In this document: one piece after another, positions 1-1,189 of the stretch
Numbering within the stretch: position 1 is the first letter of the stretch
How the letters are laid out: every line of letters begins with the position of its first letter
NCBI RefSeq assembly: GCF_000204015.1
Contig: NZ_GL883077.1
Location: forward strand, 75,608 to 114,065
Source: Asticcacaulis biprosthecium C19
Lineage (GTDB): Bacteria > Pseudomonadota > Alphaproteobacteria > Caulobacterales > Caulobacteraceae
Reading direction: 5' to 3'
Length of the DNA: 38,458 nt
Program-made: the position numbers and the translations under genes
The notes under the pieces: generated by a model
Databases searched by the model: none
Told to the model about the DNA's origin: nothing
What the model saw: only the letters and a program-made list of their open reading frames with translations

Positions 1-998
1 AGTTCGGCGATCTGGACGGCGTTGAGGGCGGCGCCTTTTAGCAGCTGGTCGGCGGCGACAAACATCGAAATCGAGCGCCCCGACGAGTCCGACAAGTCGC
101 GACGGATGCGGCCGGCCAGCACATCGTCCTGACCGCTGGCGTCCTTGGGCATCGGGAAATAGTTGTTCACCCAATCGTCAACCAGGCGTACACTCGGCGC
201 CGTTTCCAGGAGGGCGCGCACCTCGTGCGGCGCTATCGGGCGCTCGCATTCGAAGGTCATCGACACTGAGTGTGCCCGCAGCACGGGCACCCGAACACAG
301 GTGGCGCTGACGGCGATGTCTTGATCGTCGAAGATCTTCTTCGTTTCCTTGATGACCTTGGACTCTTCGTCGTTATAGCCGGTCTCCGGATCGATCGCCG
401 TATTGTGGCTGAACAGGTTGAAGGCATAGGGGTATTTGACGACCTGAGGCGCATAGTCGCGACCATCGAGATAGGCGCGGGTCGATTCCTCAAGCTCCTC
501 CATCAGTGCCGCACCGCCGCCTGAGGCTGCCTGGTAGGTCGAGATGATCAGGCGCTTGACCGGGTTGACCTGATGGATCGGCCACAGCGGCACCAGGGTG
601 GTGATGGCGGCACAGTTCGGATTGGCGATGATGCCCTTATGGGCCTTGATGCGATCGGCGTTGATTTCCGGCACGACCAGGGGAATGTCGGGATCGGCGC
701 GGAAGGCCGAGGAGTTGTCGACGACGACAGCGCCAGCCTTGACGGCGATGGGGGCGAAAGCTTTTGAAATACTGCTGCCGGCCGAGAACAGTGCGATGTC
801 AACGCCATCAAAGGCGGCTGCCGTGGTGTCCTCGACAACCAGGTTTTCGCCGCGGAACGGATAGGTCTTGCCGGCCGAACGGGGGCTGGCCAACAGCTTC
901 AGTTGCTTCAGCGGAATGCCGCGGCGTTCGATGCAGCCGATGAATTCGCGGCCGACGGCGCCGGTCGCGCCGACGATGGCGACGGTCTTGTTGTGCAT
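1..998 (-). CDS. asd: Aspartate-semialdehyde dehydrogenase (3' end outside window)
   Basis: Catalyses NADPH-dependent reduction of L-aspartyl-4-phosphate to aspartate semialdehyde, the branch-point step for lysine/diaminopimelate, threonine, methionine and isoleucine, in the cytoplasm. Reading the minus strand from the ATG at 998 gives about 332 residues without a stop. The start MHNKTVAIVGATGAVGREF is a Rossmann nucleotide-binding loop (GATGAVG), followed by SAGSSISK, VVDNSSAFR, and ANPNCAAIT, where the Cys is the catalytic nucleophile around residue 130. A later GRIRRDLSD segment matches the substrate-binding Arg region of the family. The gene is open at the left edge, so the last few residues and stop are not seen; family length is about 340. 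SD-like AAAGGA lies about 8 nt before the ATG. It is preceded by a threonine-type attenuator (see 1022-1152), which fits its place in threonine synthesis. Confidence 0.96.
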   Translation of the reverse strand, partial: MHNKTVAIVGATGAVGREFIGCIERRGIPLKQLKLLASPRSAGKTYPFRGENLVVEDTTAAAFDGVDIALFSAGSSISKAFAPIAVKAGAVVVDNSSAFRADPDIPLVVPEINADRIKAHKGIIANPNCAAITTLVPLWPIHQVNPVKRLIISTYQAASGGGAALMEELEESTRAYLDGRDYAPQVVKYPYAFNLFSHNTAIDPETGYNDEESKVIKETKKIFDDQDIAVSATCVRVPVLRAHSVSMTFECERPIAPHEVRALLETAPSVRLVDDWVNNYFPMPKDASGQDDVLAGRIRRDLSDSSGRSISMFVAADQLLKGAALNAVQIAE

Positions 999-1021
999 GG
1001 ATCAAGGTCCTTTCAGGCAAT

Positions 1022-1049
1022 AAAAAAGCCCCGGCCGGGTGGACGGGGC
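1022..1049 (-). terminator. Intrinsic terminator of the asd attenuator
   Basis: On the minus strand GCCCCG (1049-1044) can pair with CGGGGC (1033-1028), directly followed by a run of six T (1027-1022). It sits between the leader ORF stop (1078) and the asd start (998), so it would cut transcription before asd. A second CGGGGC copy inside the leader ORF (minus strand 1106-1101) is identical to the 3' arm and could instead pair with the GCCCCG 5' arm, giving a mutually exclusive antiterminator. The pairings are seen in sequence; the regulatory role is inferred from the classic attenuation arrangement. Confidence 0.8.
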
Positions 1050-1077
1050 GTGTACGGAGATGGTTTCAGCGAGACTG

Positions 1078-1152
1078 TTACGCGCGCGCGAATACCCCCG
1101 GCCCCGAGGCCATGGTTTTCGTGGTTGTTGTTGTGAGCGTAATGAAGGTCAT
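1078..1152 (-). CDS. Threonine-rich leader peptide of asd (24 aa)
   Basis: Minus-strand ORF ATG (1152) to TAA (1080-1078). The peptide begins MTFITLTTTTTKTM and ends ASGPGVFARA: eight Thr in the first 13 residues, five of them consecutive, plus one Ile codon. This is the composition of thr attenuator leaders such as E. coli thrL. The ORF is followed by a CGGGGC segment, the terminator at 1022-1049 and then asd. Ribosome stalling at Thr codons 2-13 would leave the CGGGGC within codons 16-18 free to pair with the terminator 5' arm and allow read-through; full translation to the stop would mask it and permit termination. No clear Shine-Dalgarno precedes the ATG, but the predicted transcription start falls within a few bases of it, so the mRNA may be leaderless. 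Confidence 0.8.
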   Translation of the reverse strand: MTFITLTTTTTKTMASGPGVFARA

Positions 1153-1160
1153 CGGGGGCT

Positions 1161-1189
1161 GATTTAGCGGGGGACTTCCGTGCCGTCAA
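1161..1189 (-). promoter_or_regulatory. Sigma-70-type promoter for leader peptide and asd
   Basis: On the minus strand TTGACG (1189-1184) and TAAATC (1166-1161) are separated by exactly 17 bp. Transcription would start near 1152-1155, at or just before the ATG of the leader peptide. The -35 box lies in one arm of the palindrome at 1180-1218. Hexamers and spacing are directly visible; promoter activity is inferred. Confidence 0.65.

Follow-up and report, generated by a model that had tools for sequence, protein, structure and literature searches.

The thrL leader of Escherichia coli thrABC combines a Thr-rich leader peptide, alternative hairpins and a terminator, and senses threonine and isoleucine. 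In the translational amino-acid attenuation of Actinobacteria, it is access to the Shine-Dalgarno sequence that the leader peptide controls. Aspartate-semialdehyde dehydrogenase (Asd) provides the branch-point intermediate for lysine (and cell-wall diaminopimelate), threonine, methionine and isoleucine. The available sections of PMC10117765 (2023) include an alphaproteobacterial attenuator, trpL of Sinorhizobium meliloti, whose leader peptide (peTrpL) is read from a leaderless RNA, but this is a Trp attenuator of trpE. The same sections describe SEP5, a short translated ORF that contains six codons for Thr and three for Lys and lies in the 5' UTR of a gene called 'aspartate dehydrogenase'. SEP5 is suggested there to be a leader peptide and is called conserved only in Sinorhizobium; neither a terminator nor alternative pairing nor a wider family is mentioned. 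This was the one relevant statement on asd leaders found in the open-licence literature: the available text of Naville and Gautheret (2010) contains neither 'asd' nor 'threonine', and the available main text of PMC4117421 neither 'threonine' nor 'semialdehyde'.

The locus considered here lies in a window of 38,458 nucleotides from Asticcacaulis biprosthecium C19, this being the whole stretch of DNA that was analysed. Like SEP5, as far as the available sections describe it, the locus has a short ORF with Thr and Lys codons before an asd-type gene. With thrL it shares the Thr-rich peptide, the rival hairpins and the terminator, although thrL controls thrABC rather than asd, and the Rfam Thr_leader covariance model has no match to the window's leader, even at E-values up to 5. 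Attenuators of this general kind are known, but on asd they are more widespread and varied than the open-licence literature found would indicate.

A preliminary description, made from the sequence alone, had proposed a threonine attenuator of asd in an alphaproteobacterium. Its coordinates for the minus-strand ORF are exact, with eight Thr within the first 13 codons (codons 2, 5, 7-11 and 13), and the anti-terminator segment, terminator and T run that it placed before asd are present by sequence (Table 1). The gene was also correctly named, as its product scores above the cut-offs of both NCBIfam PRK14874 and TIGR01296, and the nearest named relatives by Asd are Asticcacaulis sp. AC460 (95% identity) and A. 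solisilvae (88%). The leader ORF begins 154 bases upstream of asd; with an assumed Thr background of 5.3%, the probability of at least eight Thr in 12 of its positions is about 2.5e-8. The upstream gene ends at 1222, and the gene that follows asd on the same strand looks by eye like an IclR-type regulator; asd thus seems to be a solitary gene.

Table 1. Leader ORF, predicted promoter and attenuator elements upstream of asd2 (window coordinates)
Feature	Position	Strand	Basis or remark
-35 element (predicted), TTGACG	1184..1189	-	sequence; TTGAC/TTTAC recurs in relatives' leaders
-10 element (predicted), TAAATC	1161..1166	-	sequence; 17 nt from the -35
Leader ORF, 24 codons, MTFITLTTTTTKTMASGPGVFARA	1078..1152	-	control codons: 8 Thr and 1 Lys
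Segment 1, GGCC, pairable with 1103-1100	1108..1111	-	sequence
Segment 2, CGGGGC, anti-terminator strand within the ORF	1101..1106	-	sequence; pairing in relatives
Segment 3, GCCCCG, 5' arm of terminator and alternative partner of segment 2	1044..1049	-	
Segment 4, CGGGGC, 3' arm of terminator	1028..1033	-	sequence
Six-T run of terminator	1022..1027	-	sequence
AAGGA, likely Shine-Dalgarno of asd	1008..1012	-	inferred from sequence
asd2, aspartate-semialdehyde dehydrogenase	3..998	-	ATG at 998; extends beyond the window edge

Several features by which attenuators are recognised occur together here. Firstly, the short ORF contains a cluster of codons for Thr, a product of the pathway. Secondly, a terminator of GCCCCG and CGGGGC followed by six T is predicted by sequence between the ORF and asd. 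Thirdly, the anti-terminator strand overlaps the ORF, and its pairing excludes that of the terminator. Fourthly, ORF and terminator are conserved jointly before the same gene in relatives. It is very likely, from these sequence features, that the locus is a ribosome-mediated transcription attenuator of the genome's second asd gene.

That there is a second gene qualifies the earlier proposal that the step shared by several pathways is under control. An asd is indeed the predicted target, but it is Asd2: the same genome holds Asd1 (L002), 41-42% identical to the window's protein and with no leader upstream, and leader control therefore does not by itself govern the shared step. A close and a distant asd were found in all six genomes checked from Asticcacaulis, Bradyrhizobium and Parvibaculum (L003, L004, L008, L009, L019, L028), and the controlled gene is thus an additional isozyme. 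By identity the proteins form three groups, namely Asd1, the window-type Asd2, and Asd3/other, which is about 45% identical to both. Within the window's genus, the leader-bearing gene is instead an Asd3 in G014, G029, G042 and G052 (L094, L091, L141 and L096 respectively), and G060, G068 and G075 gave a single asd match.

Individual scans of the window's leader were unremarkable. The single-sequence fold of 1160-1020 was no stabler than shuffles (z -0.6); a consensus promoter scan did not recover the leader promoter; Rfam gave no relevant match in the leader region at gathering score or at E-values up to 5; and a simple terminator scan made no call at the asd leader terminator, because the scan allows loops of up to 8 and this one has 10. 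Hence the case rests on conservation. For this, asd was sought in 80 family and 231 class genomes, and upstream regions were fetched for part of them. The leader is not peculiar to its source genome: ORF and terminator were found by pattern at 79 of 80 loci, mostly Bradyrhizobium, with L046 failing. Counted without repeat fetches and without L013-L082, a Thr/Lys-rich short ORF precedes 26/36 Asd2, 12/31 Asd3/other and, among the matches listed, 10/110 Asd1 loci, compared with 2/177 antisense and 5/169 further-upstream control stretches. The preliminary description had named this recurrence in relatives as a check on its proposal. A strict detector, which required a hairpin and an anti-terminator word as well as a Thr/Lys/Ile/Met-rich head, passed 97/113 Asd2 rows (seven being repeat fetches), 8/28 Asd3/other and 0/51 Asd1, the last partly because this detector, built for the Asd2 layout, expects segment 2 within the ORF or next to it; L160 was missed by it. 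On the low Asd1 counts from both approaches, the idea that such a leader marks every asd was rejected. No leader was found at the Asd2 loci L117, L119, L120 and L130, nor at L115, which is close to a contig end.

These distributions bear on two alternatives. A plain constitutive terminator, or one belonging to the upstream gene, beside a Thr run arisen by chance or as a repeat would accord with the unremarkable single-sequence fold, but it is extremely unlikely given that the ORF, with its codon bias, recurs jointly with segment 2 and the hairpin before asd in many genera, and that the Thr/Lys-rich ORF is so rare in controls. Alternatively, the ORF might encode a small protein with its own job, as might be suggested by the detection of SEP5 using Ribo-seq and a tagged Western blot in the available sections of PMC10117765. 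However, the peptide is variable except where its codons form segments or carry Thr or Lys, and such a protein would be compatible with attenuation in any case; as a replacement for it, this explanation has hardly any probability. Upstream of the leader, an inverted repeat, GTGCCGTCAAG (1218-1208) and CTTGACGGCAC (1190-1180), separates it from the preceding gene, its right arm overlapping the predicted -35; a palindrome at the matching place in L003 differs partly in sequence. The repeat could be the terminator stem of the upstream gene, or an operator.

A covariance model, R1, built from 38 asd leaders found an asd-linked leader in 20 of the 231 class genomes (19 at E <=2.2e-10, and G115 at 3.7e-5), 15 of these 20 having supplied sequences to the model. 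Across 239 phylum genomes, 17 had an R1 match of any kind at E <=1e-5, the sole one outside the class being G498, where the match precedes a thrS-like gene (by eye). In the class and phylum searches, filtering removes some weak matches, and R1 E-values are rough; many weak matches look like short repeats or chance.

A transcription start downstream of 1078, which the preliminary description had held would count against attenuation, is spoken against by the sequences before the leader ATG: 36/44 leaders have a TTGAC or TTTAC motif there, 34 of them at 35-40 bases from the ATG, compared with a frequency of 3% in shuffles. A TA follows 16-20 bases past the motif in 33/44. At this spacing, the 5' UTR would be very short or absent, and transcription most likely starts at, or a few nucleotides before, the leader ATG. 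Such transcripts have precedents: the available text of PMC4117421 (2014) counts 375 leaderless mRNAs in Caulobacter and reports leader peptides there too, and the S. meliloti trp leader is likewise leaderless in the available sections of PMC10117765.

Downstream of the ORF, the leaders have two architectures. Among those tabulated, 18 end in a U-run of 4-7 T, comprising the window, other Asticcacaulis, Bradyrhizobium, Parvibaculum and further alphaproteobacteria. The consensus fold of 17 U-run leaders has a three-pair hairpin at the place of the window's 1:2 pairing; the 2:3 helix has just 6 bp in the window, compared with 9-10 bp in L005, L112 and L116. A stem of this kind is also present in the other 33 tabulated leaders, of which only L114 has a real U-run. 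In these 33, the stem is followed by a segment 5 (e.g. CCCCGCGCCUCC, GCGCCCGUCUCC or GACCCUGU), for which arm 4 of the stem and the Shine-Dalgarno region are alternative possible partners. In L136, the core GGGGC has become GGGAC in segments 2 and 4, with matching changes in 3 and 5.

When 31 U-less leaders were folded together with RNAalifold, the consensus contained 3:4 but lacked 2:3 and 5:6, segment 2 being paired with 5 instead; this failure is attributable to a core too invariant, and spacers too variable, and hence an arm-swap test was used. With the segments of L129 set by hand after the segment table, and in statistics that ignore relatedness, the arms of 30 U-less leaders paired better with their own partners for 2:3 (p 0.007), 3:4 and 4:5 (0/2000 swaps reaching the observed value for either) and 5:6 (p 0.0085). 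The same test on 15 U-run leaders, whose stem hardly varies, gave p 0.10 for 2:3 and 0.71 for 3:4. An ungapped 5:6 helix occurs in 22 of the 33 rows with a segment 5, and is better than shuffles (p<0.05) in nine; the whole second hairpin beats shuffles in 9/32 U-less and 3/17 U-run leaders, and the Shine-Dalgarno is paired at 4-5 of 5 positions in 26/31 U-less, but also in 9/17 U-run leaders. The U-less leaders are, by their pairing potential, probably a translational form, so the original proposal of attenuation by termination suits the window, but probably does not suit many of its relatives. It is for these U-less leaders only that the actinobacterial systems, which involve other genes and segments, are relevant. 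Because homologous leaders have segments able to mask the Shine-Dalgarno, the window's copy might itself act on translation rather than transcription; but the six T after its stem, and the lack of a segment 5/6 (the best 5:6 being a U-rich helix, p 0.30), set it apart from the U-less type and make this very unlikely.

In the Asd tree, U-run leaders lie among U-less ones and need one change, within the Asd2 clade (support 74/98; 70% of bootstrap trees), with L131, L229 and L242 labelled U-less by eye, although the T-rich tail of L242 could be a U-run. The root of this tree is a midpoint, which gives the change no direction.

The codons themselves suggest what would be sensed. In the control regions of 59 asd leaders, 308 of 908 residues are Thr (34%) and 144 are Lys (16%), with Met and Ile mildly raised in some groups. 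Hence the Thr peptide foreseen for the window is supported, but its relatives use Thr plus Lys. R1 also matches leaders upstream of threonyl-tRNA synthetase genes, and 11 such thrS leaders of the same layout contain 60 Thr (36%) but only 5 Lys (3%) in 169 residues, a difference in Lys significant by Fisher's test (7e-7). The peptides were picked by hand, leaving out near-identical Bradyrhizobium rows and L003, L025, L086, L143, L145, L236, L278 and L317. Codon content therefore follows the downstream gene. The attenuator would probably sense charged tRNA-Thr and, in most relatives, tRNA-Lys. As Thr and Lys codons are mixed in most relatives, scarcity of either should suffice, and we infer an OR switch induced by either shortage alone. 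The window's leader is at the Thr-dominated end of the asd series, and Lys sensing is doubtful there because it has only one Lys codon.

The thrS genes were identified by NCBIfam on 120-residue pieces (L224, L235), by Pfam (L225, L226, L227, L230, L233, L235) or by eye (L236, L312, L315, L317, L318, L321). Full-length-type enzymes with both TGS and editing domains follow leaders at L227 and L233; neither domain was found by Pfam in the whole or nearly whole proteins of L225, L226, L230 and L235. Short ThrRS of about 400 aa stand behind Thr-rich leaders at L224, L225, L226, L230 and L235 in the family searches, and similar proteins of this length, by eye, at L236, L312, L315, L317, L318 and L321.

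The view that all R1 matches concern Thr was rejected, as several precede unrelated genes. These include acetyltransferase genes (L231 by Pfam; L316 and L319 by eye), an AAC(3)-like acetyltransferase (L232, by eye) and ABC-transporter ATPases (L234 by Pfam; L228 by eye). In related genomes, probably Bradyrhizobium, similar leaders beginning MIK and ending WAVEGVVR or alike precede small ORFs of about 130 aa (L313, L314, L320, L323, L325). The source genome itself has a second R1 match (L223, E 2.5e-8), with leader MTSMFTTTVARKATAIRGASGGCVIL before a 103-aa ORF that partially matches isochorismatase below the Pfam cut-off. At L322, leader MITKPCAAISKKGPHPGASDFCAH, a terminator-like stem and a T-run precede a dihydrodipicolinate-synthase family-like gene (by eye), and L324 has a His-run leader (HHHGHHH) before a HisRS/HisZ-like gene (by eye). 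The transporter and acetyltransferase genes could be taken to mean that the ORF senses general ribosome stalling, such as that caused by antibiotics, rather than Thr/Lys charging. Yet this is exceedingly improbable, as the residues track the gene: Thr and Lys before asd, Thr before thrS, and the His run before the HisRS/HisZ-like gene.

A minority of Asd1 genes apparently carry separate Thr/Lys leaders, at 6-8 of the 110 loci examined among the matches listed in the family and class searches. By eye, six have rival hairpins and at least four T (L160, L252, L254, L260, L277, L281), the hairpins differing in sequence from those of the Asd2 type; L300 has segments without a T run, L267 is less clear and L278 doubtful, and the leader of L104 was set aside as probably chance. 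On the tree, eight labelled Asd1 leaders require six changes, at least three of them forced. These Asd1-type leaders, in other families, resemble the available description of SEP5, whose control codons are also near the 3' end; the window's are not, and its Asd2 leader differs in layout.

For the window's attenuator, we suggest the following operation. Transcription would begin at or just before the leader ATG, and the peptide would be read as soon as the RNA emerges. When charged tRNA-Thr (and tRNA-Lys) is plentiful, the ribosome would reach the stop codon and cover segment 2, leaving 3:4 to pair and transcription to stop at the U-run. If little of the tRNA is charged, the ribosome would stall on Thr/Lys codons over segment 1, such that 2:3 pairs, no terminator forms, and asd2 is made. 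In the U-less relatives, 3:4 would probably free segment 5 to mask the Shine-Dalgarno (5:6), and 2:3 would probably let segment 4 sequester segment 5.

The attenuator reading is well supported by comparison, and the predicted control of a second isozyme, the Thr plus Lys codons of relatives, the two probable expression platforms and the apparent repeated origin go beyond the published description found. A broader reading, which we favour with less assurance than the attenuator itself, would have an alphaproteobacterial set of leader switches sharing one layout (a nearly leaderless ORF with a GCGGGGC / GCCCCGCCG core) and serving other genes besides asd and thrS; before asd, it would act as a Thr-or-Lys OR sensor of an inducible second isozyme, leaving Asd1 mostly free, with separate origins on some Asd1 genes, and with passage between transcription termination, the form of the window, and a translational relay of six segments. 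The comparison of asd and thrS leaders offers a built-in control for what codon content encodes, and the set as a whole a natural series in which one leader changes between termination and Shine-Dalgarno masking. A leader reading two pathway products on the second isozyme suggests that the shared step may be raised on shortage while the other copy is left untouched.
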